64,000 nt of DNA from positions 115,032-179,031 of the forward strand of contig MKVL01000009.1 in assembly GCA_001899205.1 (NCBI GenBank). Reading direction: 5' to 3'. Numbering within the stretch: the stretch's first letter is position 1; every line of letters begins with the position of its first letter. Positions 6,166 to 27,862 of this stretch are shown piece after piece. This DNA is from Mesorhizobium sp. 65-26 (GTDB lineage Bacteria; Pseudomonadota; Alphaproteobacteria; Rhizobiales; Rhizobiaceae). The notes beneath the pieces were generated by a model, which searched no databases, was not told the DNA's origin, and saw only the letters and a program-made list of their open reading frames with translations. Made by a program: the position numbers and the translations under genes.

Positions 6166-7131
6166 ATGCCGCTGCGCGCCAGACTGCCCTCGCCTGGAGC
6201 GCTTTTCATGTTCGAGGCGGCGGCGCGACACCAGAACTTCACGCTGGCGGCGCGAGAATTCAACGTCACGCAGCCGGCGATCAGCCGGATGATCTCACGG
6301 CTGGAGGATCATCTGGGCGCGAAGCTGTTTCTGCGCCGCTCGACGGGGCTGGAACTGACCGAGGAAGGGCGCGTGCTGCAGCGCGCCGTCCGGCAAGGGT
6401 TCGATCGCATCGAGGAAGCTGTCTGCGACATACAGGCCGGCGCCAATGCTGGCGATGTGGTGACGCTGTCCGTCACCTCGGCCTTCGCCATACACTGGCT
6501 GATGCCGCGCTTCGACAAGTTTCGCCAGGAGGTGCCGGGCGTGCAGATCCGCCTCGATCTCATCCATGGCGAACCCTATGGCCCGCTCGGGGATGCCGAC
6601 ATAGGCGTTCGTTACGCATTCCCCGAGGGCGACGAAATCGAAGCCTGGCCGCTGGTGGAAGAGGTCGTCATTCCGGTCTGCAGTCCCGGCTATCTGCGCG
6701 CGCACGGGCCGATCGACGGTCCGGAGGGATTGAGAGGCCACATCCTGGCAAGCCTGAGCGGCAAGATGCGCATTCCCTGGCCCACCTTCCTGGCCGCGGT
6801 CGGTCTCGGCCCGATGCGCGAGGCGACGGAACTGGCATTCTCCGACTACGCGCTGGTCATTCAAGGCGCGATCAAGGGCCAGACCGTCGCGCTTGGCTGG
6901 TGGCACGTCGTTGCGGGAGAAATCCTTTCGGATGGCCTCGTGCCGGCGGGGCGAACCCTGCTCCAGACCGGCACCTTCTACCACCTCGTCGCGCGCCGGT
7001 CAGCGGCCAGGCGACCGGAGGTGCGGAAGGTTCGGGACTGGCTGCGAACAGAGTTCGCCGCCATCGAGGACCAGCGCGTGCAACGTGGCCTGTTCACGGT
7101 GAAGGAAGCGATCAAGCCACCCGCAGATTGA
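6166..7131 (+). CDS. LysR-family transcriptional regulator (GcvA-like)
   Basis: 321 residues: an N-terminal winged HTH (about 9-66) with AAREFNVTQPAISRMIS as recognition helix, then a periplasmic-binding-fold effector domain. The opening LPSPGALFMFEAAARHQNF is typical of the GcvA branch. It is transcribed away from the flavoprotein-ligase-crotonase operon and probably controls it in response to a pathway acid or CoA-related effector. Its 3' end overlaps the convergent GMC oxidoreductase gene by 20 bp. Confidence 0.88.
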   Translation: MPLRARLPSPGALFMFEAAARHQNFTLAAREFNVTQPAISRMISRLEDHLGAKLFLRRSTGLELTEEGRVLQRAVRQGFDRIEEAVCDIQAGANAGDVVTLSVTSAFAIHWLMPRFDKFRQEVPGVQIRLDLIHGEPYGPLGDADIGVRYAFPEGDEIEAWPLVEEVVIPVCSPGYLRAHGPIDGPEGLRGHILASLSGKMRIPWPTFLAAVGLGPMREATELAFSDYALVIQGAIKGQTVALGWWHVVAGEILSDGLVPAGRTLLQTGTFYHLVARRSAARRPEVRKVRDWLRTEFAAIEDQRVQRGLFTVKEAIKPPAD

Positions 7132-8788
7132 GGACCTCTCGCACAAGGGCGTCGGGCTGCACACCGACAGGCACCGGATCCAGCGCGCGCCGTCCCCGTA
7201 TCATGTCGGCCGCCTTCTCCGCGATCATGATCACCGTCGCGTTCAGGTTGGCGCCAACGACATGCGGCATGACCGACGCATCGACCACCCGCAGACCCTG
7301 AATGCCGAGCACCTTCAATTCCGGATCGACGACGGCATCCTCCCCCACGCCCATCTTGCAGGTACAGGACGGATGAAACTCGGTCTTGACCGAAGCGCGC
7401 AGCGCATCGTCGATTTCGGCGTCCGACCGGGCCGCCACGCCCGGCGCCACCTCCAGTGCCCCCAATCGCTTCAAAGGCGCCTGCATGGCGATCTCACGCG
7501 TCACCTTCACGCCCTCGCGCATTTCGACGACGTCGCGAGGATGGGAGAAGAACCGGAAATCGATCCGTGGCGCATCCTTCGGCGAAGCACTCTTGAGCGT
7601 CAGACGGCCGGTGCTGCGCTGGCGCAATTGCGACAGATGCAGGGCGAAGCCGTGCGACAGGCCGAAGCTGCCGTCCGGCCTGGAATCGATCTTCATCGGC
7701 GCGACATGGTAGTGCACGGTAGGCAAGTCGGAATCGTCCATCGCCCGGGCAAAGCCGCCGATCTCCCATATGTTCGAAGCGGCGGGCCCGGTTTGACGGA
7801 CCATCCATTCCAGGCCCGCCCGCACCTTGCCGTAGGGCGACCCCATCCAGGCATGCGAGACCGGCTCCGTACAGCGGAAGGACATGCCGAGGTCCAGATG
7901 ATCCTGCAGATTGGCGCCGATATGCGCCTGGTCGAGCAACGGCCTGATGCCCAGTCCACGCAGATGGTCAGCCGGCCCGATACCGGACAGCATCAGAAGC
8001 TGAGGCGAGTTGATCGAACCGCCGCACAGAATAACCTCGCGCCGCGCCCGCAAGCTGCGAACTGCGTCGCCCTGGGAGTATTCCACGCCTGTCGCACGCC
8101 CAGCCTCGACGACGACGCGATGCACCAATGCCCCGGTCTCGACGAAGAGGTTCTTGCGTGGGAGCGCCGGCCGCAGATAGGCGACCGCCGCGCTGCAACG
8201 CCTGCCACCGACTTTCGTGCAGTCGAGGCGGCCTATCCCGACAGCGTCCGGCCCGTTCAGATCCTCCACCAACCGGTGGCCGGCTTCGGCTGAAGCTTCT
8301 TCGAAAGCGTCGAAGATCGGCGATTGCAGGTTCCCGCGCTGCACATGCAGGGGCCCGTCGCCACCGCGGTAGAGCGAGGCGCCCCGATCCGAGGTCTCGG
8401 ATCGGCGGAAATATGCCAGGCAATGCGCGAAGCTCCAATCCGTCAGCCCTTGCGCCGCCCACGCATCGTAATCAGCCGGATGGCCGCGCAGGTAGACCAT
8501 GGAATTGATCGAGGAAGAGCCGCCCAGGGTGCGCCCGCGCGGCACCGGGATGCGCCTTCCCGAAAGCTCCGGCTGCGGCTCGGACTCATAGTTCCAGTTG
8601 AAGCGGGGATCGTGGTAGACCTTGTAGACGCCGGCCGGTATCGCCATCATCAGCGAGCGGTCCGGGCCGCCAGCCTCGAGCAGCAGAACCTGGCAATCGG
8701 GATCCTCCGTCAGTCGGGCAGCCAGAACGCAGCCGGCCGATCCCGCGCCGACGATGATGTAATCGAATTCCCGCTCCGTCGCCGCCAT
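7112..8788 (-). CDS. GMC-family FAD-dependent alcohol/choline-type dehydrogenase
   Basis: 558 residues from the ATG at 8788, chosen because GGGGAG lies about 10 nt upstream and the protein then opens directly with the FAD fold (YIIVGAGSAGCVLAARL). GMC signatures follow: GRTLGGSSSINSMVYLRG (about 85) and, near the C-terminus, HPSCTCKMG and ANLNATVIMIAEK, supplying the catalytic His and Asn. Such enzymes oxidise primary alcohols to aldehydes. It is the last gene of the peptide-type ABC transporter operon, so its substrate is probably the imported compound or a product of it. No betaine or choline partner gene adjoins it. Confidence 0.87.
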   Translation of the reverse strand: MAATEREFDYIIVGAGSAGCVLAARLTEDPDCQVLLLEAGGPDRSLMMAIPAGVYKVYHDPRFNWNYESEPQPELSGRRIPVPRGRTLGGSSSINSMVYLRGHPADYDAWAAQGLTDWSFAHCLAYFRRSETSDRGASLYRGGDGPLHVQRGNLQSPIFDAFEEASAEAGHRLVEDLNGPDAVGIGRLDCTKVGGRRCSAAVAYLRPALPRKNLFVETGALVHRVVVEAGRATGVEYSQGDAVRSLRARREVILCGGSINSPQLLMLSGIGPADHLRGLGIRPLLDQAHIGANLQDHLDLGMSFRCTEPVSHAWMGSPYGKVRAGLEWMVRQTGPAASNIWEIGGFARAMDDSDLPTVHYHVAPMKIDSRPDGSFGLSHGFALHLSQLRQRSTGRLTLKSASPKDAPRIDFRFFSHPRDVVEMREGVKVTREIAMQAPLKRLGALEVAPGVAARSDAEIDDALRASVKTEFHPSCTCKMGVGEDAVVDPELKVLGIQGLRVVDASVMPHVVGANLNATVIMIAEKAADMIRGRRALDPVPVGVQPDALVREVLNLRVA

Positions 8789-8853
8789 TCCGGCAGTCTC
8801 CCCATTGCATCTTTCTCGCGCGCGCCGCCAGCAGTTGCAACCTGCAAAGGCGC

Positions 8854-10473
8854 TCAAGCGGCCCGCGCGGCAACGATACCGTCCAGCCAACCAACCGCCA
8901 TGTCGGGGACGGAGTCCAGCAGCTTGCGCGTATAGTCGGCACGCGGCTGGGCCAGGACCTGATCCTTGCCCCCCTGCTCGACGATTTTGCCATCCTGCAT
9001 GACGACGACGCGGTCAGCGATGGCGCGCACCACCTCGATATCGTGCGTGATGAAGAGATAGGAGACACCGAGGCGCTCCTGCAGCCGCATCAGCATGCGC
9101 AGCACTTCGGCCTGAACCACCTTGTCCAGGGCCGAGGTGATCTCGTCGCAAACGATCAGCCTCGGGTCCGCGGCAAGGGCGCGGGCGATGGCGATACGCT
9201 GCTTCTGTCCACCCGAAAGCTGGCCGGGCGTTCGATCGATATGCGTCTCGTTCAGTTCGACCAGCTTCAGCAACTCCAGCACCCGCTCCTCGCGGCGCGC
9301 GCCGCGCAGCCCCTGGTACAGCGTCAGCGGGCGGCCGATGATCTTGCGAACGGTCTGGCGCGGATTGAGCGCGGTGTCGGCGGACTGATAGATGATCTGG
9401 ATCTGTTTCAGCATCTCCAGCGACCGGCGGCGTATGGTGCCCGGCAAAGGCTTGCCTTCATAGACCACCTGACCGGAGGAGACTTCCTTCAGCCCGACGA
9501 TGACGCGACCCAGCGTCGACTTTCCAGAGCCGGATTCCCCGACCAGCGCAACAGTCTCCCCGCGCCCGACATCGAGATCGATCGCCGTCAACACCTGAAA
9601 GTCGCCATAGTGCGCGCCGAGGCCGGTCACGGCCAGAAGCGGCGCGCCCTTGCCGTGCCGGTCACCCTGGCCGACCGGCATCTCGTGCACCGCCCACAGG
9701 CTCTTCGTATAAGGATGGGTGGGCCGCTCCATGATCTGCGCGATCGGCGCCTCCTCCACAACCTCGCCATAGCGAAGCACCGCCACGCGATGCGCGACCT
9801 GGGCGACAACCGCCAGGTCATGCGTGATGTAGATCGCCGCCACACGGTAGTCCTCGATGACCTTGCGGATCGAGATCAGCACCTCGACCTGCGTCGTCAC
9901 GTCGAGCGCGGTGGTCGGCTCGTCGAAGATGATGAGCGCCGGGTTGCAGATCATCGCCATGGCGACCATGGCGCGCTGCAACTGCCCGCCCGACACCTGG
10001 TGCGGATAGCGCTTGCCGAAATTCCGCGGATCGGGAAGCTGAAGCGCGTGGAACAGATCGAGCGCGCGTTTCTGGGCCGCCTCGCGCGTCAGGCCGCCGC
10101 GATCCACGGCGACCATGATGATCTGGTCCATCAGGCGATAGGCCGGGTTGAAGGCCGCCTGCGCGCTCTGCGCGACATAGGCGACCTTGGTGCCGCGGAA
10201 CTTGCGCCGCTCCTCTTCGGGGATGTCCAGTATGTTCTGCCCCAGCAGCCGGACCTCGCCGCCGGTGACTTTCGCGCCGGGGCGAAAATATCCCAGGGCC
10301 GCCAGGCCGACGGTCGACTTGCCGGCGCCGGATTCACCAACCAGCCCCAGCACTTCGCCCGGGCGGATCGACAGGCTGACACCGTTGACGATCTTCGACC
10401 ACTGATCGTTCGATTTCGCCTCTATCTTCAGGTCGACAAGGTCGATGACGGGTGCGCTAGGCGTTGCGGTCAT
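8854..10473 (-). CDS. Fused double ATPase of a dipeptide/oligopeptide-type ABC importer (DppD-DppF in one chain)
   Basis: 539 residues with two complete nucleotide-binding domains. The first (about 5-255) has Walker A GESGAGKSTVG, signature VSGGQLQRAMVAMA and Walker B LIIFDEPTTALD. The second (about 278-530) has GESGSGKSTLG, LSGGQKQRIAIARAL and LIVCDEITSALD. It therefore replaces the separate DppD and DppF subunits and should energise the two permeases encoded upstream at the inner membrane. GGGGGA precedes the ATG; the permease gene ends 18 bp upstream. Confidence 0.92.
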   Translation of the reverse strand: MTATPSAPVIDLVDLKIEAKSNDQWSKIVNGVSLSIRPGEVLGLVGESGAGKSTVGLAALGYFRPGAKVTGGEVRLLGQNILDIPEEERRKFRGTKVAYVAQSAQAAFNPAYRLMDQIIMVAVDRGGLTREAAQKRALDLFHALQLPDPRNFGKRYPHQVSGGQLQRAMVAMAMICNPALIIFDEPTTALDVTTQVEVLISIRKVIEDYRVAAIYITHDLAVVAQVAHRVAVLRYGEVVEEAPIAQIMERPTHPYTKSLWAVHEMPVGQGDRHGKGAPLLAVTGLGAHYGDFQVLTAIDLDVGRGETVALVGESGSGKSTLGRVIVGLKEVSSGQVVYEGKPLPGTIRRRSLEMLKQIQIIYQSADTALNPRQTVRKIIGRPLTLYQGLRGARREERVLELLKLVELNETHIDRTPGQLSGGQKQRIAIARALAADPRLIVCDEITSALDKVVQAEVLRMLMRLQERLGVSYLFITHDIEVVRAIADRVVVMQDGKIVEQGGKDQVLAQPRADYTRKLLDSVPDMAVGWLDGIVAARAA

Positions 10474-10491
10474 GGTCTTTCCCCCATCGTC

Positions 10492-11370
10492 TCAAGCATC
10501 GTCATTCAGGCCGCTTGCCCGGTTCAGCAGCCAGTCGACCACGAAATTCACGGCAATGGCCAGAAAGGCGATGGCCGCGGCCGGTATGAGCGGGGTGATG
10601 TCGCCCATGTTGATCAGCGCCGCGTTGTCGCGGACCATCGACCCCCACTCCGCCGTCGGCGGCTGGATGCCGACGCCGAGGAACGACAGGGCTGCGATAT
10701 TCAGGAAGATGAAGCAGAACCTCATGCCCAGTTCGGACAGGATCAGGGGCAGGATGTTCGGGAACACCTCATTGACGGCGATCCACAGCAGGCTCTCGCC
10801 GCGGACCTTGGCGTGCTCGACGAAATCCAGGCTGGCGACATTCAACGCCGCGGCCCGCGCTATGCGATAGAAGCGCGTCGAGGTGAGCACCGCGATGATC
10901 AGGATGAGATTCAAAACCGAGGAACCGAAAATCGAGAGGATCATCAGCGTGAAGATCAGGTCGGGGACCGACATCAGCGCGTCGACGAGACGCGAGATCA
11001 CCTGATCCACGATCCCTCCGACCAGCGCGGCGAAGACACCCAGCAGGCAGCCGATGACGAAGGATATGGCTGTGGTGAGCAGCGCGATCGAAATGGAGTT
11101 GCGAGCGCCGAATATCAGGCGCGACAGGAAATCGCGGCCGAGCTGATCGGTCCCGAGCAGATGGTTGGCGCTCCATGGCTCGAAAGGAACGCGCGAAACG
11201 ACCTCGACCTCCCCGTAAGGTGCCAGCAACGGCGCAAGCAGGGCGACGAGGGCATAGATGGCGACGATCACCATGCCGAACTTCGCGCTTGGCGGCGCCG
11301 AGCCGACAAGTTTCAGCGTGCCCAGGAAGCGGTTCGGAGCGGCGGATCTGACTTCAAGGCTTTGCTGCAT
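10492..11370 (-). CDS. ABC transporter permease, DppC/OppC type
   Basis: 292 residues from the ATG at 11370, which has GAGGGAGAG just upstream; an in-frame start at 11385 lacks this. Six hydrophobic segments are visible, and the cytoplasmic loop KVRGESLLWIAVNEVFPNI is the EAA-type contact with the ATPase. The extracytoplasmic N-terminal part (LLGTDQLGRDFLSRLIFGAR) is diagnostic of the DppC subfamily. It pairs with the DppB-type gene 11 bp upstream to form the channel. Confidence 0.92.
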   Translation of the reverse strand: MQQSLEVRSAAPNRFLGTLKLVGSAPPSAKFGMVIVAIYALVALLAPLLAPYGEVEVVSRVPFEPWSANHLLGTDQLGRDFLSRLIFGARNSISIALLTTAISFVIGCLLGVFAALVGGIVDQVISRLVDALMSVPDLIFTLMILSIFGSSVLNLILIIAVLTSTRFYRIARAAALNVASLDFVEHAKVRGESLLWIAVNEVFPNILPLILSELGMRFCFIFLNIAALSFLGVGIQPPTAEWGSMVRDNAALINMGDITPLIPAAAIAFLAIAVNFVVDWLLNRASGLNDDA

Positions 11371-11381
11371 GGTTCTCTCCC

Positions 11382-12347
11382 TCAACGCGGATGCAGCAGG
11401 CGTGGATTGCTGACGATGGAGATGATGTCGGCGATCAGGTTGAAGCCGATATAGGCGGCGGCGAAGATGAGCGCGCAGGCCTGGATGACCGGCACGTCGC
11501 GGTTTCGCACGGCGTCGATCATCGCCTGGCCAACGCCGGGATAGACGAAGACGACCTCGATCACGACGACGCCCGAGATCAGGTAGGCAAGGTTGAGCGC
11601 GACCACGCTGGCGATCGGGCCGATCGCGTTGGGTAACGCCTGCCGCACGACGACGCGCTTTTCCGGCTCACCCTTGAGCCGTGCCATCTCGATATAGGGA
11701 CTGGCCATGACCGACAGGATCGCCGCGCGCGTGTTGCGCACCATATGCGCCAGGATGACCAGCAGCAGCGTCAGGATCGGCAGCACCATGCGATAGAGCT
11801 GTTCGCCGAGCCCCATGCCGTTGCGGATGCCGGCCATTGAGGGGAACAGCTGCAGTTTCACGGCCAGCACCATCATGACAACATAGGCCACGAAGAACTC
11901 TGGGATCGAGATCGAGGCCAGCGTCGAGGTCGACAGGAACTTGTCGAGGAACCGGCCCCGGTAACGCGCGCAAACGATGCCCAGCGCGATCGACAGCGGC
12001 ACGGCGATGGCGGCGGTGATCGAGGCCAGGACGAGGGTGTTCTTCAGGCGCGGCCCGATCAGCGCCATGACCGGCCGGCCGGAGAACGAAAGCCCCATGT
12101 CGCCCGTCGCGGCCGCCCCCAGCCATGCGAGATACCGCAGGAACCAGGGGCGGTTCAGCCCGAGCTTGACCTCCATCGCCGCAACGGCGGCCGGCGTCGC
12201 GTTCTGGCCGAGGATGGCGGAGGCATAGCTGCCGGGCAGGAAGCTGACGGCGGAGAAGATGATCAGAGAGACGATCAGCAAACTGAGAAGTCCCAAGCCG
12301 ATCCGGCTCGCAGCCATGGACAGGATCGGGTGGGATTTGGTCGTCAT
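11382..12347 (-). CDS. ABC transporter permease, DppB/OppB type
   Basis: 321 residues from the ATG at 12347; GGAGAG lies 8 nt upstream and the protein begins MTTKSHPILSMAASRIG before the first membrane segment. Longer in-frame starts would add a low-complexity tail unlike the family. Six hydrophobic segments are present, and MARLKGEPEKRVVVRQALPN is the EAA loop facing the ATPase. It works with the DppC-type permease in uptake of a peptide-like or other amide substrate. The binding-protein gene ends 64 bp upstream. Confidence 0.9.
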   Translation of the reverse strand: MTTKSHPILSMAASRIGLGLLSLLIVSLIIFSAVSFLPGSYASAILGQNATPAAVAAMEVKLGLNRPWFLRYLAWLGAAATGDMGLSFSGRPVMALIGPRLKNTLVLASITAAIAVPLSIALGIVCARYRGRFLDKFLSTSTLASISIPEFFVAYVVMMVLAVKLQLFPSMAGIRNGMGLGEQLYRMVLPILTLLLVILAHMVRNTRAAILSVMASPYIEMARLKGEPEKRVVVRQALPNAIGPIASVVALNLAYLISGVVVIEVVFVYPGVGQAMIDAVRNRDVPVIQACALIFAAAYIGFNLIADIISIVSNPRLLHPR

Positions 12348-12411
12348 GCGTCGCGCTCTCCGCTCGTTCGCTCGCTTGCGTGATGCCCCTGCACCGCTGG
12401 CTGACACATGA

Positions 12412-14013
12412 TCATGCGTCCATCCGCCACCAGCGCTCGGCCCCGCGATGATTGTCGGCGGGCAGAATACCGCCCAATGTCGCATGACCGATATTCGTCG
12501 TCATGGCGAGACGCCACGAGACGAAAGCCACAGTGATCAAGCCGCCCTCATCATGCAGCATCTGCTGCGCTTCGGCATAGATCTTGGCGCGCTTTGCCTG
12601 GTCCATCTCGGCACGCGCCGATTTGACGAGCGCGTCGAAGGCCGGCTTCTTGAAGCCGGTGTTGTTCCACGGCGCATCCGAGGTGTAGGAGGTGGCGAAC
12701 AGCCAGTCGAGCGTGACGCGACCGTACCAGTCGGAAGCGTTGAAGGGCTTCTTCAGCCAGACATTGTCCCAGTAGCCGTCGTCGGCTTCCTGGACGATGT
12801 TGACCGTGATCCCGGCCTTGGCAGCATGCTCCTTGAACAGCACCGCCGCGTCGACAGCGCCGGGGAAGGCGGTCTCGGCGACAGAGAGGTCGACCGACAC
12901 ATTGTCCAGCCCCGCTTCCTTCAGAATGGCCTTTGCGGCGTCCGGGTCGTAGGCATGCTGCGGCGGCGTCTCGGCATAGAACGGCATGATCGAGGCGGCC
13001 GGATTGTCGTTGCCCTTCTTGGCCTCGCCCAGGAAGACCTTGGCGATGATGTCGTCCCGGTCGATAGCGAGCTTCAGCGCCTTGCGCACCGCTGGATTGT
13101 CGTAGGGCGCGACGGAGCAGTTCATGTCGAACGTCAGATGCCTCAGGCTTGGCGTGCGAACGATCTTGAGGCGATCGTTGCGCTCGACCATCGCGACATT
13201 ACGGATGTCGACATCCTCGATCACGTCGACTTCACCGGTCATCAGCGCGTTGAGCCGGGCGGTGCCGTCGGGAATGTTCACCACCTCGACCTCGTCGAAG
13301 TGAGGCAGGCCGGGCTTGTGATAGTCCGGGTTGCGCTTCAGCCGGATCGCGATGCCGGGCTCGAAGCTTTCCAGCTTGAATGCGCCCGTGCCGATGCCGC
13401 CTTGCCAGTCGATGCCGCCACCCTCGCGGGCCGGAAAGATCGACAGGTGATAGTCCGACATTAGATAGGGAAAGTCGGCGTTACCCTCGGTGAGGATGAA
13501 CACCACCTTGTTGTCGCCATCCTTGTCGATCTGCTTGATCTGCTTCACGATGGCCAATGCGCCGGACGTGCTGCCTTCGCCCATGTGGTGCAGCAGCGAT
13601 TGGCGCACATCCTCTGGTGTCAGCGGGCGGCCATCGTGGAATTTCACGCCCTTGCGCAGGATGAAGGTCCAGCGTGTCGCCCCCTCCTCGCCCGTCCAGC
13701 TTTCGGCGAGGTCGCCGGCGAGCGAGCCGTCCGGCAGAAGCTCGACAAGATTGTTGCAGAGCGACCCGTTGAAGGCGAACCCGGTCATCACCGTCGCCCA
13801 GCTCGCCGGGTCGAGCGTATCCTGCTGCGAACCGTCATTCATGCCGTAGCGCAGCTTGCCGCCTTGCTTGGGCTTGTCCTGGGCCCAGGACAGGCCGGGA
13901 AAGGCAACCATGCCGGCAACCGCGCTGGCCCCCACAAGGAAGCGCCGGCGCGTCGGCGCCATGCCAATGGATGTGGCGGGATGTTCACCACTTTCGATAT
14001 TCTGCCGCTCCAT
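12412..14013 (-). CDS. ABC transporter substrate-binding protein, family 5 (paralogue 1)
   Basis: 533 residues from the ATG at 14013, which is preceded by GGAGGA. The N-terminus carries a Tat-type signal (TRRRFLVGASAVAGMVAF, cleaved near WAQ), so the protein is periplasmic. The SBP_bac_5 fold is plain: GGKLRYGMND start, LRKGVKFHDGRPLTPEDVR, and a conserved ADFPYLMSDYHLSIFPA stretch. It is clearly homologous along its whole length to the next upstream gene, with most blocks shared, so the two arose by tandem duplication. It probably binds the transported amide or a related ligand. Confidence 0.92.
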   Translation of the reverse strand: MERQNIESGEHPATSIGMAPTRRRFLVGASAVAGMVAFPGLSWAQDKPKQGGKLRYGMNDGSQQDTLDPASWATVMTGFAFNGSLCNNLVELLPDGSLAGDLAESWTGEEGATRWTFILRKGVKFHDGRPLTPEDVRQSLLHHMGEGSTSGALAIVKQIKQIDKDGDNKVVFILTEGNADFPYLMSDYHLSIFPAREGGGIDWQGGIGTGAFKLESFEPGIAIRLKRNPDYHKPGLPHFDEVEVVNIPDGTARLNALMTGEVDVIEDVDIRNVAMVERNDRLKIVRTPSLRHLTFDMNCSVAPYDNPAVRKALKLAIDRDDIIAKVFLGEAKKGNDNPAASIMPFYAETPPQHAYDPDAAKAILKEAGLDNVSVDLSVAETAFPGAVDAAVLFKEHAAKAGITVNIVQEADDGYWDNVWLKKPFNASDWYGRVTLDWLFATSYTSDAPWNNTGFKKPAFDALVKSARAEMDQAKRAKIYAEAQQMLHDEGGLITVAFVSWRLAMTTNIGHATLGGILPADNHRGAERWWRMDA

Positions 14014-14144
14014 GAGTTCCTCCAACCTTTCCGAAACAGCAACACACTTCATGCGGATATCCGGCATGGTCGCCCGGCCGCCAATGCGCTCGAACGCATG
14101 GCGACCACGACAAGCAAGATCCGCCCCTGATCAGCCTTGAAAGC

Positions 14145-19074: not shown

Positions 19075-19206
19075 CGTCTTGCCTGCACCCCGTGACCTGG
19101 CTTTCACATCTGGCATGGAAATTCAGCTTTTCATTCGAAAATGGGTCGGAATCCTGTCTCGCCATGCGCGCGGCGAAAAGCAAGCCTCATCGTTGCTGAA
19201 CGGCAT

Positions 19207-20079: not shown

Positions 20080-20083
20080 CGGC

Positions 20084-21679
20084 TCAGTTCCATTTTCCGC
20101 GGTCTTCCAGGATGACCTTGGCCGCGTTGTGCCCGGGCACGCCGGTCACGCCGCCGCCGGGATGGACGGAGGCGCTCGCCTGGTAGAGTCCGTCGATCGG
20201 GCTGCGATAGTCGGCGTAACCGGGAGAGAAGCGGCGGAAGAACATCTGGTCGGCGCTGATCTCACCGTGATGCACGTGACCGTTCGGCAGGTCGAAGATC
20301 CGCTCCAGATCCAGCGGCGTTATCACCTGCCGATGCAGGATATGATCCTCGATATCCGGGAACTGCGTCTTGAGGACTTTCAGGACATTGGTCCACAACT
20401 CCTCGCGCCGCTCGTCCCAACTGCCCGTCGCGAGCGTGTAGGGGGCATGCCCGCCGAAGATGTTCATGATGTGGTGCCCGGGAGGCGCAAGCGTCGGATC
20501 GACCATCGACGGCACCTTGACGATCAGGAACGGCTTGTCGGCCATCTCGCCTTCCTGGGAGATGCGATGCGCCCGTTCCATGTAGGCGACGCTAGGGGCG
20601 ATCGTCATTTGCGGCAGGACGCCGCCCTGGCGCGCGGCCTGGGCGAAGACAGGCGCATCCGGCAGCGACTTCAGGGCGAGGTTGACGCGGAACACCGTGC
20701 TCTCGCAACGGATGTTCGCGATGTCGCGATTGAAGCCCTCCGGCAGCAGGCCGGGGTCTATGAGCCTGGTGAAGATCGTGCGCGCCGTCGCATTGGCAAT
20801 CACTATCTTGGAGCGGATTTCCTCACCGCCCTCGAGCCGCACGCCAACGGCGCGCCCGTTCTCGACCAGGATCTTCTCGACCGGCACGCCGGTGCGGACC
20901 TCCATGCCGTGGGCCTCGCCCGAGCGGCGAATGGCTTCCGAGATGGCACCCATTCCGCCCTTCATGAAACCCGCGGGGCCTGCCGGCGTGCTGCCATCCC
21001 TGACAATGCCGCGCGCCAGCATGTAGGCCGATCCAGGCGTCTTCAGGCTGGAGTTGGCGCCGCCTCCGCCGGCGAAGAAGCCGAGGACAAGCTTCACGTC
21101 CTCCGACTCGAACCAGCGCGACAGGTAGTCGTAGGCGCTCATGGTCAGCAGATTGTAGATGTCGAAGAACTGCGGGCCGATCTTGCGAAAACGCCAGACG
21201 AAACCCGCCAGCCGCTTGAGGTCCCGCATCCTGCCGCTGCCGGGATTGACGGGGACTTCCCACAGAAGCTGCTTCATGAAGGGCGCCACCTTCTGCATGT
21301 GGGCGCGGTAGCGCGCATATGCCTGGCCGTCCGAATTCGACAGCCTGCCGATTTCGGCGGCGAACTTCTCGGGGTCGTCCCACATGGTGAAGGTCCTGCC
21401 GCCCTCGAGGGCAAACACGGTGGGATGCGCCGGGAGCACCTCGAAGCCATATTTCTGCAGCTCCAGATCGAGGATGACCTTCGGCTGCAGGAGGCCCTGA
21501 TAGTAGGACGCCATGGATGAGCGATATCCCGGCGCGATCTCCCCGGTAACGGCGGCTCCGCCAATGACATCGCGCCGCTCGACCACGAGAACCTTGACCC
21601 CGGCGCGTGAAAGATAGGCGCCGCAGGTGAGCCCGTTGTGGCCACCGCCGACGATGATGGCGTCATAGTGCGGTTTCAT
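20084..21679 (-). CDS. FAD-dependent oxidoreductase, phytoene-dehydrogenase/PYROXD2-like
   Basis: 531 residues from the ATG at 21679, preceded by AAGGAG and overlapping the stop of the acyl-CoA ligase gene (ATGA). The N-terminal dinucleotide fold is YDAIIVGGGHNGLTCGAYL, followed by VLVVERRDVIGGAA. The C-terminal FAD contact DGLYQASASVHPGGGVTG is typical of this branch of the amine-oxidase/carotenoid-desaturase superfamily. No signal peptide is seen. It probably oxidises a C-C or C-N bond of an intermediate in the pathway; no carotenoid genes are nearby. Confidence 0.85.
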   Translation of the reverse strand: MKPHYDAIIVGGGHNGLTCGAYLSRAGVKVLVVERRDVIGGAAVTGEIAPGYRSSMASYYQGLLQPKVILDLELQKYGFEVLPAHPTVFALEGGRTFTMWDDPEKFAAEIGRLSNSDGQAYARYRAHMQKVAPFMKQLLWEVPVNPGSGRMRDLKRLAGFVWRFRKIGPQFFDIYNLLTMSAYDYLSRWFESEDVKLVLGFFAGGGGANSSLKTPGSAYMLARGIVRDGSTPAGPAGFMKGGMGAISEAIRRSGEAHGMEVRTGVPVEKILVENGRAVGVRLEGGEEIRSKIVIANATARTIFTRLIDPGLLPEGFNRDIANIRCESTVFRVNLALKSLPDAPVFAQAARQGGVLPQMTIAPSVAYMERAHRISQEGEMADKPFLIVKVPSMVDPTLAPPGHHIMNIFGGHAPYTLATGSWDERREELWTNVLKVLKTQFPDIEDHILHRQVITPLDLERIFDLPNGHVHHGEISADQMFFRRFSPGYADYRSPIDGLYQASASVHPGGGVTGVPGHNAAKVILEDRGKWN

Positions 21680-23331
21680 GCGTTGGCTCCTTCGATCCAT
21701 GCCCCGACGGTGCGATCATAGGAGCCCGCCCTTGGGTCGACGTCCCGCGCCTTGAGCAGCGGCTTGGATATCTTCAGCGAGGCGGTGCGGGGAAAATCAT
21801 CGACGAAGGCATAGAAGCGGGGAACCTTGAAGGCGGCGAGCCCGGCCTGGGCTGTGGCGATGACACCATCGAGGAGTGCCTGATCGGGCCCCCGCCCTTC
21901 CTTCAGCTTCAGATAGGCCTTGACCTCCTCGCCCCTCAGGGCGTCGGGAACACCGACCACGGCGACCTCGGCGACGCCCGGGGCGGCTGCCAGGACCGTT
22001 TCGACCTCGCGCGCGGCGATGTTTTCGGCAGAACGGCGGATCATGTCCTTCTTGCGGCCGACGATGTAGTAGAACCCGTCCTCGTCCTGGCGGAACAGAT
22101 CACCGGTGGAGAACCATCCGTGGCGCAGCACCTCGGCGGTCGCTTCCGGATTGTTGTAGTAGCCCAGCATGATGCCGGGACCGCTGATCTGCAGTTCGCC
22201 GATCGTCCCCGGCCGGACCGGATTGCCGGCCTCGTCGACGATGCGGCACTGCCGGAACGGACAAGGCACGCCACAGGACCCGGACCCGACCTTGTCGGAC
22301 CGCTCAATGGGCGCGAACATCGCCGGGCCAACCTCCGTCATGCCAAAAGCCTCGCGCGCATTCAGGTCGAAGCGCGCCTCCAGCGCCTGGTGAAGATCGC
22401 GCGGGCAGCCGTAGATGTTGGCGCGCACCACCTTGTTGTCGGCGTCGTGCGGTTGCGCGGCGATGCCATGCAATATCCAGGGCAGCAGGCAGAACTCGAT
22501 ATCGAATTCCTTCAGCCAGAGAGAAAAGCGGCTGGTCGATTGACGCGCGGCGACGAAGAGCGTGCCACGCTGATACATGGTCATCAGCAGCAGCCATTGC
22601 GGATCCATGTAGAAGAATGGCGTCGAGGCCAGGATGCGGCGATAGACCCTGCCGTCGCGAAACGCATTCACCTTGCCGGCGGAGATCCAGTAGCGCTGGC
22701 TGAGCATGCAGCCCTTCGGGAAGCCGCTGGTGCCCGAAGTGAACTGGATGTTCAGGAGATCATCGTGGCCGACAGGCTCGGGCGCCGTGAACGCTTCGGC
22801 CGGCTCGGCCAGCGCCTGCCAGTCGCGCGCGCCTTCCGGCACGTCGCCGCCGACGACGATCATCCGCTCCGGCGGCACCGACACCAGCCCCTCGGCGTGG
22901 GCCTGGTCGAGCGTCGCGCGGGTGGAGGCATGGGTGACGACCCATTCGGCCTCGGCCACCTGCATGACATGGGCGATCTCGCGCGGCGTGTAGCCGGGAT
23001 TGATGGGCAGCATCACCGCGCCGATCCGGCCGAGCGCCAGCCACGTCAGCGGAAAGGCCGCGATGTTGGGGAGCATCACGCCGACATGGCTGCCCTTGCG
23101 GATGCCGACCGACATGAGACCGGCCGCCAGTCCGTTCACCCGGCGCCGCATTTCGGCGTAGGTGATCGTCTCGCCACTGTCGAAGAAATTCCACAACAGC
23201 CTGTCGCCGGCCTCATCGGCCGCCGCGTCGATCAGCGCGCCGATATTGTCCGGCAGCGGCTCGGCCTCGATGCGTCGACGGCGTTCGTCATAGTCGACCA
23301 CCGGTCGCGCCAGAACCTCGTCCTTCCACAT
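21676..23331 (-). CDS. AMP-forming acyl-CoA synthetase
   Basis: 551 residues of the ANL superfamily. The phosphate loop is FTSGTSGFPKGC (about 180), the adenine region has GMTEVGPAMF, the hinge motif is YYIVGRKKDMIRRSAENI, and the C-terminal catalytic lysine is in PRTASLKISKP. It makes an acyl-CoA from a carboxylic acid, ATP and CoA, most similar in feel to crotonobetaine/carnitine-type or medium-chain ligases. GGAGG precedes the ATG. In this operon it could activate the acid released by the amidase or made by the aldehyde dehydrogenase. Confidence 0.87.
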   Translation of the reverse strand: MWKDEVLARPVVDYDERRRRIEAEPLPDNIGALIDAAADEAGDRLLWNFFDSGETITYAEMRRRVNGLAAGLMSVGIRKGSHVGVMLPNIAAFPLTWLALGRIGAVMLPINPGYTPREIAHVMQVAEAEWVVTHASTRATLDQAHAEGLVSVPPERMIVVGGDVPEGARDWQALAEPAEAFTAPEPVGHDDLLNIQFTSGTSGFPKGCMLSQRYWISAGKVNAFRDGRVYRRILASTPFFYMDPQWLLLMTMYQRGTLFVAARQSTSRFSLWLKEFDIEFCLLPWILHGIAAQPHDADNKVVRANIYGCPRDLHQALEARFDLNAREAFGMTEVGPAMFAPIERSDKVGSGSCGVPCPFRQCRIVDEAGNPVRPGTIGELQISGPGIMLGYYNNPEATAEVLRHGWFSTGDLFRQDEDGFYYIVGRKKDMIRRSAENIAAREVETVLAAAPGVAEVAVVGVPDALRGEEVKAYLKLKEGRGPDQALLDGVIATAQAGLAAFKVPRFYAFVDDFPRTASLKISKPLLKARDVDPRAGSYDRTVGAWIEGANA

Positions 23332-23430: not shown

Positions 23431-23492
23431 TTGTTTGATCCGGCGGCATCGATGCGACGCGCCAGCGGGTCGCCAGGCCGCGAATGCGCCCG

Positions 23493-24980
23493 TCAGTGGG
23501 CGAACCACATCGCCTTCAGGTCGGTGTACTTGTCCATCGCATGCAGGGACTTGTCGCGACCGAAACCGGACTGCTTGAAGCCCCCGAAGGGAACAGCCAT
23601 CGACCCGCGATCGAAGCAGTTGACCCAGACCACGCCGGCCTTGATCGCCTTGGCAGCCCGGTGTGCGTTCTTGACCGAACCGGTCCAGACCGCGCCGGCC
23701 AGGCCGTAGATGGTGTCGTTCGCCACTTCCATCGCCTCGTCGAAACCCTTGACGGTGATGGCGGACAGCACCGGGCCGAAAATCTCCTCGCGCGCGATCG
23801 TCATATCGTTGCGGACGCGGTCGAAAATCGTCGGCTCGATGTAGAAGCCGCCGGTCTCGACGCGGACCCGGCTGCCGCCGATGAGCGTTGTCGCCCCTTC
23901 GGCGCGGCCGGCGTCGATGTAGCCCAGCACGCGATCCATCTGTTCCTCGGTGACCATCGAGCCCATGCGGGTGGTCGCGTCGAGCGGATCGCCGGGCGTG
24001 AAGGACCTGGCGTGGGCCGCGATCTTCTCGAACAGCGCGTCGCGCACCTTCTCGTCGACGATCAGGCGGCTGCCGGCGTTGCAGACCTGCCCGGTGTTGG
24101 CGAAGATGCCGGCGGCGACACCGGCAGCGGCCGCATCCAGATCGTCGCAATCGGCGAGCACGACCTGAGGCGACTTGCCGCCCAGTTCCAGGCCGATGCG
24201 CTTGATGTTGGATTGACCCGAATACTGCATGAAATACTTGCCGACTTCGGTAGAGCCGGTGAAGCCCACGCAGTCGACATCCATGTGCAGGCCAAGCGCC
24301 TTGCCGGCGATGTGGCCGAGGCCGGGCACGACATTGAGCACGCCGGCAGGAAGCCCGGCCTCGATTGCCAGTTCGCCAAACTTGAGCGCGGTGAAGGGCG
24401 ACTGCTCGGCCGGCTTCAACACCACCGAATTGCCCGTGGCCAGCGCTGGGCCGAGCTTCCAGGCCGCCATCGACATCGGATAGTTCCACGGCACCACGGC
24501 GGCGACGACGCCCAGTGGCTCGCGCACCACCAGCGTCGTCATCTCGTGCGCCGTGGCCGCGACCTCGCCATAGACCTTGTCGATCGCCTCGGCATACCAC
24601 GCGATGCAGTTGGCGGCGCTGACCACGTCGCCGTTGAAGGCATTCGCGATCGGCTTGCCGACGTTGAGTGTCTCCAGCAGCGCCAGTTCCTCGCGGTTCG
24701 CCAGGATCAATTCGGAGAAGCGCAGCAATATTTTGCGGCGGTCGGCCGGCGCCATGCGCGACCAGACACCCGCGTTGAAGGCCTTGCGCGCCGAGCGCAC
24801 AGCCCTGTCGACATCGGCCTCGTTGCACGAGGCCACTTGCGTCAGCAGGCGCCCGTCGCCGGGATAGACGCAAGCGAAGGTCTCGTTCGAGACGCTGTCG
24901 ACATATTGGCCGTCGATGAAAGGGCGGTTCGGCAGTTGCACCGATTTTGCACGTGCATGCCAGTCGATTGTTTGCAGCAT
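23493..24980 (-). CDS. NAD(P)-dependent aldehyde dehydrogenase (aminoaldehyde/betaine-aldehyde type)
   Basis: 495 residues of the ALDH superfamily. The NAD-binding SFTGSTEV-type stretch reads VGFTGSTEVGKYFMQYSG, the general base Glu is in LELGGKSPQVV (about 264) and the nucleophile Cys in FANTGQVCNAGSR (about 298). Overall pattern matches the enzymes that oxidise 4-aminobutanal, gamma-glutamyl-aminobutanal or betaine aldehyde. It lies 53 bp after an aminotransferase gene, a classic pair in which the transaminase turns a terminal amine into an aldehyde and this enzyme oxidises it to the acid. Confidence 0.9.
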   Translation of the reverse strand: MLQTIDWHARAKSVQLPNRPFIDGQYVDSVSNETFACVYPGDGRLLTQVASCNEADVDRAVRSARKAFNAGVWSRMAPADRRKILLRFSELILANREELALLETLNVGKPIANAFNGDVVSAANCIAWYAEAIDKVYGEVAATAHEMTTLVVREPLGVVAAVVPWNYPMSMAAWKLGPALATGNSVVLKPAEQSPFTALKFGELAIEAGLPAGVLNVVPGLGHIAGKALGLHMDVDCVGFTGSTEVGKYFMQYSGQSNIKRIGLELGGKSPQVVLADCDDLDAAAAGVAAGIFANTGQVCNAGSRLIVDEKVRDALFEKIAAHARSFTPGDPLDATTRMGSMVTEEQMDRVLGYIDAGRAEGATTLIGGSRVRVETGGFYIEPTIFDRVRNDMTIAREEIFGPVLSAITVKGFDEAMEVANDTIYGLAGAVWTGSVKNAHRAAKAIKAGVVWVNCFDRGSMAVPFGGFKQSGFGRDKSLHAMDKYTDLKAMWFAH

Positions 24981-25033
24981 GTCAGTCCCATCCTTCTCCT
25001 GAGATTACGCAGTGCCGCTTCCGGGCAGCCGCC

Positions 25034-26404
25034 CTAGCGGCCAAGACCATGCGCCGCGCCGACCTCGGAGATCGCCTGGCGCATGATGGCGACGATGTCG
25101 TCGATCTGTTCGCGGGTGATAACGAGCGGCGGAGAGATGACGCACAGGTCCCCCAGCGGCCGAACGATCAGCCCGAGCTCGAAACAGCGCTGATCGATCT
25201 CCCGGGTAAAGGCCTTGTCCTCGTCCAGCGGGTCGATCCGGTTGGTGTCGAGCAGGCACTGGACACACCCCACCAACCCCACGGAGCGCACGTCGGCCAC
25301 GCCCGGCAGGTCGGACAGCGACCGCAGCCGCTCGGCGAAATAGTCCGCCTGGTCCCGCGCATGCTCGACCACGCCGTCGCGCTCCATCAGCGCGATGTTG
25401 GCCAGCGCCGCCGCGCAGGCCACCGGCTGGTTGGTGTAGGTGTAGCCGTTGGTGAACCAGCTGCCCTTGGCATTGTCGCCCGAAACACGCGCCAGCACCT
25501 TGTCTGAGATGGCGAGCCCGCCCAGGGGCACATAGCCCGATGTAACGCCCTTGGCGAAAGTGATGATGTCTGGGACGACGCCGAACACCTTTTCCGACGC
25601 GAACCATTCGCCGCAGCGGCCGAAACCGGTCACCACCTCGTCCGAGATGTAGAGTATGTCATGCTTCTCGCAGATCGCCTTGAAGCGGGCGTGATAGCCC
25701 TTGGGCGGTATGATGACGCCACCGGAAGCCAGAATCGGCTCGGCGAGAAAGGCCGCGATCGTGTCCGCGCCGAGTTCCTCGATCCGGTCCTCGAACTCCG
25801 ACACCAGATCATCGAGGAATTCCTCCTGCGTCCGGTTGCCGGCGTGGCGCGGGTTGGGGCTGGACAGGAATGAGATCCTGTCCTGCTGGATATCGAAATT
25901 TGGCCAGTTGCCCGTACGCCCGGTGCAGGCAGCGGTCAGCGCCGTCGAGCCGTGGTAGCCGTCGTAGCGCACGATGATGCGCTTCTTCCTGGGCCGCCCC
26001 AGCACGTTGTTGTAGAACTCGGAAAACCGCAGCGCGCTGTCGACGGCCGTCGACCCACCGGTGGTGAAGAAAATGCGGTTGAGGTCACCCGGGGTCAGCG
26101 TCGCGATCTTTTCGGCGAGAAGCGCCGCCGGGCTGGTGGCCATATACCAGGGAGAGGCGTAGGGCAGCGTCATTGCCTGATGCGCCATGGCATCGACGAT
26201 TTCCCTGCGGCCGTACCCGACCTGAGCGCACCACATGCCCGCAGGGCCGTCGATCAGCCTGCGGCCGTCCTCGGCGTAGACATAGATCCCCTCGGCGTGG
26301 GTCAGGATCGGTTGCGAGGCCTTGCCAAGCTTCGCCATCTCCTGCGCGGGCACGAGCACGTGTTCACGCATCGCTTCCTGGACGCCGCCAAACATATCCG
26401 CCAT
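25034..26404 (-). CDS. Class III (omega-amino acid/amine:pyruvate) aminotransferase
   Basis: 456 residues from the ATG at 26404, with GGGGAG 8 nt upstream; the adjacent in-frame GTG at 26407 is less well spaced. Class III features are the [19 protein letters not shown] segment and the PLP lysine in [19 protein letters not shown] (about 285). Relatives transfer the terminal amino group of beta-alanine, taurine, putrescine or similar amines to pyruvate or 2-oxoglutarate. First gene of the minus-strand oxidative operon, about 100 bp from operator 2. Confidence 0.9.
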
Positions 26405-26472
26405 CACCGCAACTCCCCTGCATTGATACGCCGAACGCCACCCGTAGGCCGGACACCCCTCGGCTCCGGGCA

Positions 26473-26501
26473 GTAGTGAGCCAAGCGGGTAACGGAGTCA
26501 A
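26473..26501 (-). promoter_or_regulatory. Candidate promoter of the aminotransferase operon
   Basis: On the minus strand TTGACT (26501-26496) is followed after 17 bp by a weak CACTAC -10 (26478-26473). The operator palindrome ends 6 bp upstream of the -35 box, as at the transporter promoter. The stretch GTCAACAA flanking the operator is shared by both sites. Confidence 0.35.
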
Positions 26502-26507
26502 CAATTC

Positions 26508-26525
26508 TGATTGCTTGATCAATCA
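26508..26525. promoter_or_regulatory. BetI-like operator palindrome 2 (TGATTG-N6-CAATCA)
   Basis: TGATTG and CAATCA are 6 bp apart, identical in half site and spacing to the copy at 15891-15908. It lies between the aminotransferase operon and the LuxR-type regulator gene, so it could control both. The central six bases differ from copy 1, as expected for a protein reading the half sites. Confidence 0.65.
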
Positions 26526-26548
26526 GATTTTGTATCTGGCCCCACGCC

Positions 26549-27862
26549 TTGGCCAGCATGGCGCGGGTCATCCAATCCAGGCCGCGCTGTCGACAGAGCG
26601 AAGAAGCGACCCGGCAATCCATGCTCTCTGCTTTGAAGCAGGCGACACGAATCAAGCCCGACGCAGGTCGACGCGGATGGGCGTCGCTGATTTCGGCCGA
26701 CTTGGCGGCCAAGGAGTCAGGTCATATAGTTGGCAACGATACGTTTGCTTCGACGGGGGCGTCGCGGGTGGAAGCCGTCGCTGATGAATTGGTGGATGCG
26801 ATCTACGAAGCGGCCGTGCTGCCGGAAACCTGGCCAGCCGTTCTTGAAAGGATCGCCCAAAGCGTCCAGGCCGTTGGCGGCGTTCTATTCGCCGTCGACG
26901 GGTTGCGCGGAGGCAGTTGGGCCGCTTCGGAGGCCCTGGTCCACGTCATGGGACCGGTGGCTGAAATGGCCGAGCGCAACACGCGTCCGCAGCGCGGCCT
27001 GGCCAAGCGCTACGCCGGCTTCATGGCCGATCTCGATTTCCTGACTTTGGACGAGAAGGAAAGCGATCCGCTTTACACGGAGATCCTGAAGCCAAACGGG
27101 CTTGCCTGGGGATGCGGCTCCGTCATTCCCGTCCCCAGCGGCGACCTTCTGGTTTTCGATTTCGAGAGAACAAGCGAGGTCGGCGTCTTTGATCGCACTG
27201 CGCTGGACACGCTCGACAGCTACCGCCCTCACCTGGCCAGAGCCGGGCTGATGGCGTCGCGCCTGCAACTTGCGCGCGCTCAGACGGCCACCACCGTCAT
27301 GCAGACGCTTGGCCTGCCGGGCGCCGTTATCGGCAGTCGCGGCCGGGTGCTGGCCATGAATGACCTGCTGGAGAAATTGTCGCCGCAGATTTACGCGAGG
27401 GCGCGGGATCGGCTGACCTTGGACCATGCGCCAGCGAACGCCATTCTCGAACAGGCGCTCGCCGACATCGAAACCAGAAACGAAGCGGTCCGCTCGATTG
27501 CCGTCCCCGCCGGCTTGGATGGCATAAGCCTGGTCGGTCACGTCATCCCGATCCGCAGGCAGGCGCACGACATCTTCGCGAGCGCCACGGCGCTCTTTGT
27601 CGCCACCCCTCTCGCCGCTCCCGCGTCACCCGACATCGGCCTGCTTTGCGGCCTCTTCGACCTCACTCCGGCCGAAGATCGCGTCGCGAGAGCCTTCGCC
27701 GAGGGTCATAGTGTCGAAAGCGGCGCCGCGGCCTTGTCGATCTCGCCGGAGACGGTTCGCACCCAACTCAAGCGGGTCATGGCAAAGACAGGGACGTCGC
27801 GACAGGCCGAACTGGTCCAGTTGCTGGCCGGCACGACCTCGTTCCCGTTGAGGCGCGAATGA
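26549..27862 (+). CDS. LuxR-type helix-turn-helix transcriptional regulator with N-terminal sensor region
   Basis: Up to 437 residues. The C-terminal 60 are a LuxR-type HTH (LTPAEDRVARAFAEGHSVES, then SISPETVRTQLKRVMAKTG). The preceding 300 residues resemble the GAF/PAS-like sensor of rhizobial stand-alone LuxR proteins; there is no receiver or autoinducer domain I recognise. The start is uncertain: the first 73 residues from the ATG look atypical, and a GTG at 26768 begins where the family pattern begins (VEAVADELVDAIYEAAVLPE). Divergent from the aminotransferase operon, with operator 2 in between, so it may be a second-tier regulator of the pathway. Confidence 0.8.
   Translation: MASMARVIQSRPRCRQSEEATRQSMLSALKQATRIKPDAGRRGWASLISADLAAKESGHIVGNDTFASTGASRVEAVADELVDAIYEAAVLPETWPAVLERIAQSVQAVGGVLFAVDGLRGGSWAASEALVHVMGPVAEMAERNTRPQRGLAKRYAGFMADLDFLTLDEKESDPLYTEILKPNGLAWGCGSVIPVPSGDLLVFDFERTSEVGVFDRTALDTLDSYRPHLARAGLMASRLQLARAQTATTVMQTLGLPGAVIGSRGRVLAMNDLLEKLSPQIYARARDRLTLDHAPANAILEQALADIETRNEAVRSIAVPAGLDGISLVGHVIPIRRQAHDIFASATALFVATPLAAPASPDIGLLCGLFDLTPAEDRVARAFAEGHSVESGAAALSISPETVRTQLKRVMAKTGTSRQAELVQLLAGTTSFPLRRE

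Follow-up and report, generated by a model that had tools for sequence, protein, structure and literature searches.

Among the described systems closest to the locus considered here, the nylon-oligomer (nyl) pathway employs an amidase, an omega-aminotransferase and a semialdehyde dehydrogenase. Another point of reference is the superfamily of metal-dependent amidohydrolases, in which an HxH motif, two further His residues and an Asp bind one or two metals. For the acetylpolyamine amidohydrolases (APAHs), of the bacterial cluster 4 deacylases, the available part of one report (PMC11532494) describes a salt bridge involving Glu106, a position held by His106 in PsApaH, as well as a PIS motif; it also gives PsApaH, which carries His106 and Gly117/Asp115, as active on acetyl-diamines. 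The available part of another (PMC5454378) assigns polyamine binding to Glu117 of MrAPAH. Enzymes reminiscent of each occur together in a 64,000-nucleotide stretch of Mesorhizobium sp. 65-26 (contig MKVL01000009.1, positions 115,032 to 179,031; hereafter the window), which is part of contig C9 in a genome of 6.84 Mb.

The locus is built around a 12-gene core: a class III aminotransferase, an aldehyde dehydrogenase (ALDH), an AMP-forming acyl-CoA ligase (AMP ligase), a PYROXD2-type flavoprotein, a metal-less amidohydrolase-fold protein, a TetR regulator, a divergent APAH-type zinc deacetylase and amidase, and an Opp-type ATP-binding cassette (ABC) transporter. With about even confidence, sequence comparison suggests that the locus is an accessory island, passed on horizontally, for the catabolism of an N-acylated amine taken up from outside. 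In the scheme that we infer, including its substrates, its order of steps and the roles given to the PYROXD2-type and amidohydrolase-fold proteins, the transporter would import the compound, the amidase and/or the APAH-type deacetylase would cut its C-N amide bonds, and the aminotransferase would take nitrogen off the amine part, with the flavoprotein acting where that part holds a further C-N bond. The ALDH would convert aldehyde to acid and the AMP ligase acid to CoA thioester, and the amidohydrolase-fold protein would act on that acid or thioester. In some strains, a GMC oxidoreductase might also oxidize an alcohol, while an NADH:flavin oxidoreductase (OYE), an NDP-forming CoA ligase and an enoyl-CoA hydratase (ECH) family protein might process the freed acyl part. 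A chain from amide through amine, aldehyde and acid to CoA, which a first-pass annotation of this DNA had called coherent, is plausible. The strong co-occurrence of the uptake, amide-cleaving, amine-oxidizing and acid-activating genes bears out that annotation's grouping of them, as one co-inherited unit. The GMC gene, with an orthologue in 10 of the 20 genomes or records that bear the cluster, is a less certain member of the chain.

Conservation, modular structure and transfer of the core

A search for the same gene set in other genomes, as the first-pass annotation had proposed, was successful, and the lack of co-occurrence that would have refuted its reading was not seen. A genome collection was searched with an alignment of the amidohydrolase, and 80 loci were kept from 104 relatives (among them L100 and L101 hardly differ, and L086 and genome G007 probably represent a single record). 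The whole core falls inside the fetched stretch at 15 of these 80 loci, and all 15 share a single gene order. One more locus, L094, has all 12 genes in a rearranged order, while plasmid pLA6_002, from a Paracoccaceae bacterium of marine surface water, has the same core order together with a gene annotated as a 6-aminohexanoate-dimer hydrolase. The cluster is also found in G007 and G021. Across the 80 loci, the TetR gene is present in 18 and the second solute-binding protein (SBP2) in 17.

Within the genus, an orthologue of the PYROXD2-type protein (at least 92%) occurs in only 3 of 37 genomes, its own genome counted, and the unit is therefore accessory. An amidohydrolase of at least 58% identity was found in 9 of 397 genomes sampled from the order, its own again included, and the next match reached at most 38%. 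Cluster hosts are distantly related bacteria of water and soil and include Rhodobacter, Cereibacter, Tabrizicola, Paracoccus and Oceanicella, along with a marine isolate that carries the cluster on a plasmid. Since clusters reside in Rhodobacterales genera and on that plasmid, the host range lends no support to the plant amides that had earlier been put forward as a source.

The core is itself modular. An AMP ligase gene lies within 3 kb of the amidohydrolase gene in 70 of the 80 loci, and 75 have one at some point of the stretch. Of the five loci that lack it, L092, L096, L133 and L138 are either short or have an end close to the gene; the fifth, L144, is a long stretch with no orthologous ligase. 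Modules were counted in the 61 loci of at least 17 kb. ALDH and PYROXD2 genes occur together in 27 of these and are both missing from 34; orthologues of the APAH and the amidase occur together in 16 and are both missing from 45. The aminotransferase, present in 17 loci, is always accompanied by PYROXD2 (17 of the 27 PYROXD2 loci) and in 16 cases by the APAH, which is what would be expected if amide cleavage feeds transamination. The genes are thus nested, with AMP ligase and amidohydrolase as the common core, ALDH travelling with PYROXD2, and amidase with APAH. Ten loci have ALDH and PYROXD2 without the aminotransferase; seven of them carry an SBP_bac_8-type binding protein and Pot-like ABC genes, and the remaining three have an Opp-type transporter (L105) or other or unresolved ABC genes (L127, L144). 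The pattern mostly fits an amine core to which an amide module was added.

Other front ends also occur beside the ligase-amidohydrolase pair. Some of the other loci have near it a non-orthologous amidase (28-34%), or hydantoinase A, B or both. Hydantoinase B is encoded at nine loci (L116, L119, L130, L134, L135, L139, L140, L148 and L150), at some of them alongside hydantoinase A, and several of the nine also encode TctC-type binding proteins; this is a different front end on the same core.

Transfer between orders was addressed with a quick tree of four concatenated proteins, which omitted L101, included all seven Hyphomicrobiales rows, and in which the group of interest was picked after identities were known. 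The window and two near copies group with seven Rhodobacterales (Shimodaira-Hasegawa-like approximate likelihood ratio test, SH-aLRT, 100), apart from the other four Hyphomicrobiales rows. Because a tree in which the seven Hyphomicrobiales rows were forced into one clade was rejected (approximately unbiased test, p-AU 1.6e-05), we conclude that the core has moved between Rhodobacterales and Mesorhizobium.

Enzyme families and the chemistry they suggest

The APAH-type deacetylase matches the best solved acetylpolyamine deacetylases over its full length (375-383 bits), and the Zn-site and catalytic residues that were checked are kept in all 19 rows. The motifs RPPGHH, PIS and EGGY are kept as well. 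These motifs are common to MrAPAH of Mycoplana ramosa (3q9b), Pseudomonas aeruginosa PA0321/PA1409 and PsApaH (9gkz), from which the cluster copies are set apart by their fixed Arg104/Arg111. All 19 cluster rows have Arg104, Arg111 and Ser117; Glu106 and Glu117 of MrAPAH are replaced, and the window enzyme retains Glu17 and Asp115. For comparison, 28 control APAHs (homologues of 49-56% outside the cluster, one per genome, drawn from the 70 of 150 genomes that had a match) were aligned. None combines both arginines (Arg104 in 4, Arg111 in 4) and none has Ser117. The Glu106 site holds Asp or Glu in 24, Glu117 is found in 8, and Asp115 in 20. At the three control loci whose neighbours were viewed (L198-L200), no other cluster genes were seen. 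The cluster-specific changes near the polyamine-binding loop may bear, if weakly, on the substrate. With Asp115 and Glu17 still in place, the argument from charge is a weak one because neither of these two acids has been lost from the window enzyme. An anionic substrate, at first suggested by the loss of Glu117, is at most a tentative idea, as Glu117 is missing and Asp115 present in 20 of the 28 controls too, and PsApaH, which has Gly117, acts on acetyl-diamines. Elsewhere in the host genome are two other APAHs. At L196 (G000:C29), an APAH of this genome other than that of the cluster (52-53%) has two homologues (37-40%) of the pLA6_002 NylB'-like hydrolase some 7 kb away.

These features bear on a simpler possibility, acetylpolyamine salvage, in which imported N-acetylputrescine or N-acetylcadaverine would be deacetylated by the APAH and the diamine converted through the aminotransferase and PuuC-like ALDH to gamma-aminobutyrate (GABA) or 5-aminovalerate. 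The best matches and intact motifs of the APAH agree with such a route, as do the putrescine and polyamine transaminases among the next-best solved relatives of the aminotransferase, PuuC as the best model for the ALDH, and the SBP_bac_8/Pot-like transporters at sister loci. Salvage is nevertheless judged unlikely, if worth serious attention: Arg104 and Arg111 distinguish every cluster APAH from every control, no acid occupies the Glu106 site (yet Glu17 and Asp115 persist, and the active PsApaH, too, has Asp115, together with Gly117), the host already has two other APAHs, and the AMP ligase, PYROXD2, amidase and amidohydrolase would all be superfluous.

Catalytic residues that were checked are present in other enzymes of the cluster as well. 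The aminotransferase keeps Asp256 and Lys286 in all 19 rows, the ALDH keeps Cys300 and Glu265 in all 30 (sister loci counted), and the amidase keeps Lys83, Ser158 and Ser182 in 19 of 20, with one gap. The Lys that we take to be catalytic in the AMP ligase is present in 79 of 81 rows.

Solved relatives of the amidase are an aryl acylamidase (4yj6, 186 bits), GatA (155 bits) and the 6-aminohexanoate-cyclic-dimer hydrolase NylA (3a2p, 137 bits). The last of these raises the possibility of a natural counterpart of the nylon-oligomer route, in which oligoamides of omega-amino acids would be imported, cut, transaminated, oxidized to dicarboxylates and activated with CoA. The aminotransferase, ALDH and CoA ligase would suit it as classes, and the pLA6_002 cluster contains the annotated 6-aminohexanoate-dimer hydrolase gene. 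Such a counterpart is quite improbable, since the amidase is nearer to aryl acylamidase and GatA, the NylB'-like gene is in pLA6_002 only among 84 loci and has no NCBIfam model match at E 1e-30, and the APAH and PYROXD2 would be left unexplained.

PYROXD2 is the name given in the first-pass annotation; in Pfam the protein matches Amino_oxidase, and crtI-type NCBIfam models match below their cut-offs. An AlphaFold2 (AF2) model of the flavoprotein (predicted local distance difference test, pLDDT, 85) has carotenoid desaturases as its nearest folds, followed by nicotine oxidoreductase, monoamine oxidases and putrescine oxidase. Six plasmid regions with PYROXD2 relatives were opened besides two of cluster type. 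In three (H43, H61, H65), a GcvT-like aminomethyltransferase gene is in the same run as the relative, in H45 it is about 9 kb away, and in H46 and H55 none was seen; in H46, RidA is directly upstream, within an island that has GABA aminotransferase (GABA-T), succinate-semialdehyde dehydrogenase (SSADH), amidase and AMP ligase genes. The relatives of H43 and H55 are also near CoA-metabolism genes. On account of the GcvT-like and RidA genes, this context favours C-N oxidation.

Several further loci with PYROXD2 relatives were recorded along the way. In the same genome, L033 (G000:C39:127001-147000) has a PYROXD2 paralogue (46-47%), homologues of the Opp-type solute-binding protein and permease (37-52%), and GMC-like (33%) and OYE-like (32%) genes, and is perhaps a sister island. 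Tandem PYROXD2-like genes (~37%, ~34%), as at L041 (G000:C32) and in similar pairs, are common in the genus. Plasmids of Fuscovulum and Shinella carry paired NAD(P)/FAD-dependent oxidoreductases with GcvT-like, Rieske-type and polyamine-ABC genes, suggesting methylated-amine breakdown. On a Shinella sumterensis plasmid (L210), a PYROXD2 relative stands in a row with an ECH, an acetate-CoA ligase family protein, a 3-hydroxyacyl-CoA dehydrogenase, GcvT and a 3-keto-5-aminohexanoate cleavage protein.

The most unusual part of the cluster, and the likeliest place for new chemistry, is the conserved pair formed by the AMP ligase and the amidohydrolase-fold protein. Thirty-six members of the latter family were aligned, with motifs presumed to correspond to metal ligands as in the superfamily at large. 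Positions 4-8, where the beta-1 HxH is usual, have His in 0 of 36; Ser, Ala or Gly stands in place of the usual beta-6 His, just ahead of Pro-Pro-Gly; and Ala, Ser or Gly replaces the usual beta-8 Asp. Only the beta-5 His is kept, in all 36, so the family departs from the metal-dependent amidohydrolases while retaining their fold, and the earlier description of the protein as degenerate was apt. Invariant instead are Asp65, Glu125, His152 and Arg214 (36/36), with Lys62 in 35 and Arg64 in 34. In an AF2 model (pLDDT 93), the nearest solved fold is 3irs, which is uncharacterized, followed by decarboxylases and the LigJ hydratase. The 3irs protein, BB4693, is a TIM barrel with 28% identity over 287 columns that likewise lacks the HxH and the beta-8 Asp. 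It differs by the reverse arrangement of His residues, with Met at the beta-5 site and a His near the beta-6 position.

A distinctly unlikely but far-reaching proposal would make this pair a new two-enzyme catabolic core. The ligase would produce a CoA (or adenylate) intermediate that the barrel would hydrate or hydrolyse by way of Lys62/Arg64/Asp65, Glu125, His152 and Arg214, with no metal, and other bacteria would plug in other front ends (amine oxidation through PYROXD2 and ALDH; an amidase; hydantoinase A/B; or, as in the window, the whole amide island). The window order of aminotransferase, ALDH, ligase, flavoprotein and TIM barrel would then be the order of reactions, resembling beta-oxidation with unusual enzymes.

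Several observations weigh against the island for an N-acylated amine. The 80 loci are kin by descent and were all chosen through the amidohydrolase, so that their co-occurrence counts are not independent events. The core of G021 has no amidase, and APAH, amidase and TetR are missing from Ensifer L136, where the aminotransferase, ALDH, ligase, PYROXD2, amidohydrolase and transporter are all present; amide cleavage is therefore not indispensable. No GMC orthologue was found in 10 of the 20 cluster genomes or records, the homology of the amidase, ALDH, GMC and ligase is compatible with many substrates, the closest folds to PYROXD2 are those of carotenoid desaturases and not of amine oxidases, and the APAH may do no more than deacetylate acetyl-diamines.

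Borders of the unit and its variable module

Gene classes were assigned by Pfam and NCBIfam profile scans covering 30 open reading frames (ORFs), which recovered every enzyme class named in the first-pass annotation where it had been placed (Table 1). That annotation had set the span at 7112-27862. The genes from GMC to aminotransferase remain within it, and both borders have shifted. On the right, the LuxR-type gene was considered as a cluster regulator and rejected, with a counterpart in 0 of 80 related loci; it is probably a neighbour and not part of the cluster. On the left, some genomes have GMC, LysR, OYE, CoA ligase and ECH genes next to the core, so that in window coordinates the unit spans 1142-26407, with 1142-8890 as a variable module. 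The true start of the GMC gene is probably inside its ORF. The two solute-binding proteins are 59-61% identical across copies, and SBP1 is absent from several orthologous clusters.

Table 1. Genes of the unit and its right-hand neighbour, in window coordinates.
Gene product	Coordinates	Strand	Profile or structural match
LuxR-type regulator adjoining aminotransferase	26549..27862	+	profile scan
Class III aminotransferase (PRK07036 type)	25034..26407	-	NCBIfam NF005447 714 bits (cut-off 618); 3i5t 913 bits
ALDH, PuuC/BADH-like	23493..24980	-	PF00171 555 bits; PuuC model 609 bits, below cut-off 850
AMP-forming acyl-CoA ligase	21676..23331	-	PF00501, PF13193
PYROXD2/CrtI-type FAD oxidoreductase	20084..21700	-	PF01593 (Amino_oxidase)
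Amidohydro_2 protein without usual metal ligands	19207..20079	-	PF04909
TetR regulator, BetI-type C-terminal domain	18466..19116	-	PF13977, PF00440
APAH/HDAC-type zinc deacetylase	17401..18435	+	PF00850; 9gkz 383, 6phr 380, 3q9b 375 bits
Amidase-signature amidase	15959..17392	+	PF01425 298 bits; best match among solved proteins 4yj6 (aryl acylamidase), 186 bits
SBP2	14184..15791	-	SBP_bac_5
SBP1	12412..14067	-	SBP_bac_5
ABC permease (BPD_transp_1 and its N-terminal domain)	11382..12485	-	PF00528, PF19300
ABC permease (BPD_transp_1)	10492..11385	-	PF00528
Fused double ABC ATPase, Opp/Dpp type	8854..10473	-	PF00005 (two stretches), PF08352
GMC oxidoreductase (choline dehydrogenase-like), variable module	7112..8890	-	NF002550 667 bits (cut-off 605)
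LysR regulator, variable module	6166..7131	+	profile scan
OYE, FadH/TMADH type, variable module	4022..6061	-	PF00724; 1ps9 268 bits
NDP-forming acyl-CoA synthetase, variable module	1944..4022	-	PF13607, PF13380, PF13549
ECH family protein, variable module	1142..1954	-	PF00378

Orthologues of the GMC protein (at least 54%) are beside the cluster in 8 of the 20 cluster-bearing genomes or records and on another short contig in two more. Those of OYE (at least 62%) occur in 9 of the 20, three of the matches being partial, and LysR adjoins GMC and/or OYE in 7. The NDP-forming CoA ligase and ECH genes are syntenic in G430, G436 and G432. In Mesorhizobium sp. B2-7-1 and Tabrizicola soli, LysR, OYE, NDP-forming CoA ligase and ECH come after GMC; in Rhodobacter sp. 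SGA-6-6, the LysR-OYE-CoA ligase-ECH block is on the opposite side of the core, that of the aminotransferase. In G429 the run consists of GMC-LysR-OYE, with neither CoA ligase nor ECH, and pLA6_002 has OYE with a more distant CoA ligase (38%).

Such variation might be taken to mean that two or more independent catabolic operons are chance neighbours, co-inherited as one mobile segment. Many genomes lack the module in whole or in part, and G021 has the unit without amidase, GMC or OYE in the stretch read. The idea has a slim chance, given that the amidase/APAH and aminotransferase parts occur together in 16 of 17 loci and that the placement of the OYE module on the other side of the core in SGA-6-6 makes for linkage in two arrangements.

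The module also bears on degradation of plant phenolamides, in which a hydroxycinnamoyl amide would be split into amine and cinnamate and the cinnamate processed by the CoA ligase and hydratase. Aryl acylamidase is closest to the amidase, the NDP-forming CoA ligase adjoins the ECH, and a p-hydroxycinnamoyl-CoA hydratase/lyase is second among the solved relatives of the ECH (122 bits). The ECH is nearer to 4k29 (254 bits), however, and scores 134 bits against a cut-off of 276 in the hydratase/lyase equivalog model, which places it outside that group. With many clusters in Rhodobacterales, one of them on the marine-isolate plasmid, and with no ECH/ligase module found beside several clusters, the phenolamide route is the most remote of those considered. 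For the OYE, a role as a FadH-like dienoyl-CoA reductase was rejected: 1ps9 is the best solved relative by score, but the FadH catalytic residues, which we take to be Tyr166 and His252, are not kept in the alignment.

Comparison with described pathways

The first-pass annotation had found no match to polyamine, ectoine or GABA clusters, and this holds for the markers that were scanned in the 30 ORFs. For the Puu pathway, no Gln-synt (PuuA-type) domain was present and the PuuC model scored 609 of a required 850 bits; for ectoine degradation (doe/eut), there were no M24 (DoeA) or M20 (DoeB) domains; and for GABA utilization (gabT/gabD), the SSADH model scored 381 of 646 bits and the aminotransferase is of PRK07036 type. 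The ALDH is also below the cut-off of the aminobutyraldehyde dehydrogenase model. Among the matches listed in the open-access literature searched, as far as those sources were available, there was no description of this gene set and no relevant paper on loline catabolism.

A well-defined, mobile 12-gene unit present in several groups of Alphaproteobacteria offers a practicable way towards a new nutrient pathway. It also provides one testable context for bacterial PYROXD2 relatives, metal-less Amidohydro_2 proteins and Arg-substituted APAHs, families to which naming the substrate would give a function.

Known systems share parts of this unit. With Puu/Spu polyamine catabolism, the window has in common a class III aminotransferase and a PuuC-like ALDH, and differs by its Opp-type transporter and by an ALDH that falls below the PuuC cut-off. 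With the nyl pathway, it shares the classes of amidase, omega-aminotransferase and semialdehyde dehydrogenase, and one orthologous cluster has a NylB'-like gene; orthology to NylA and NylB is not seen (137 bits for the amidase against 3a2p, and the NylB'-like gene in 1 of 84 loci), and the window adds the flavoprotein, deacetylase and amidohydrolase. Similar logic with partly other parts is seen in an island on plasmid p5 of Rhizobium sp. NZLR1 (L211), which joins GABA-T, SSADH, RidA, a PYROXD2 relative, an AMP ligase, an amidase, a deacetylase, TetR and an ABC transporter. In place of the APAH and the metal-less amidohydrolase, that island has a polysaccharide-deacetylase-type enzyme and a MaoC protein, and it carries acyl-CoA dehydrogenase and electron-transfer flavoprotein (ETF) genes in addition.

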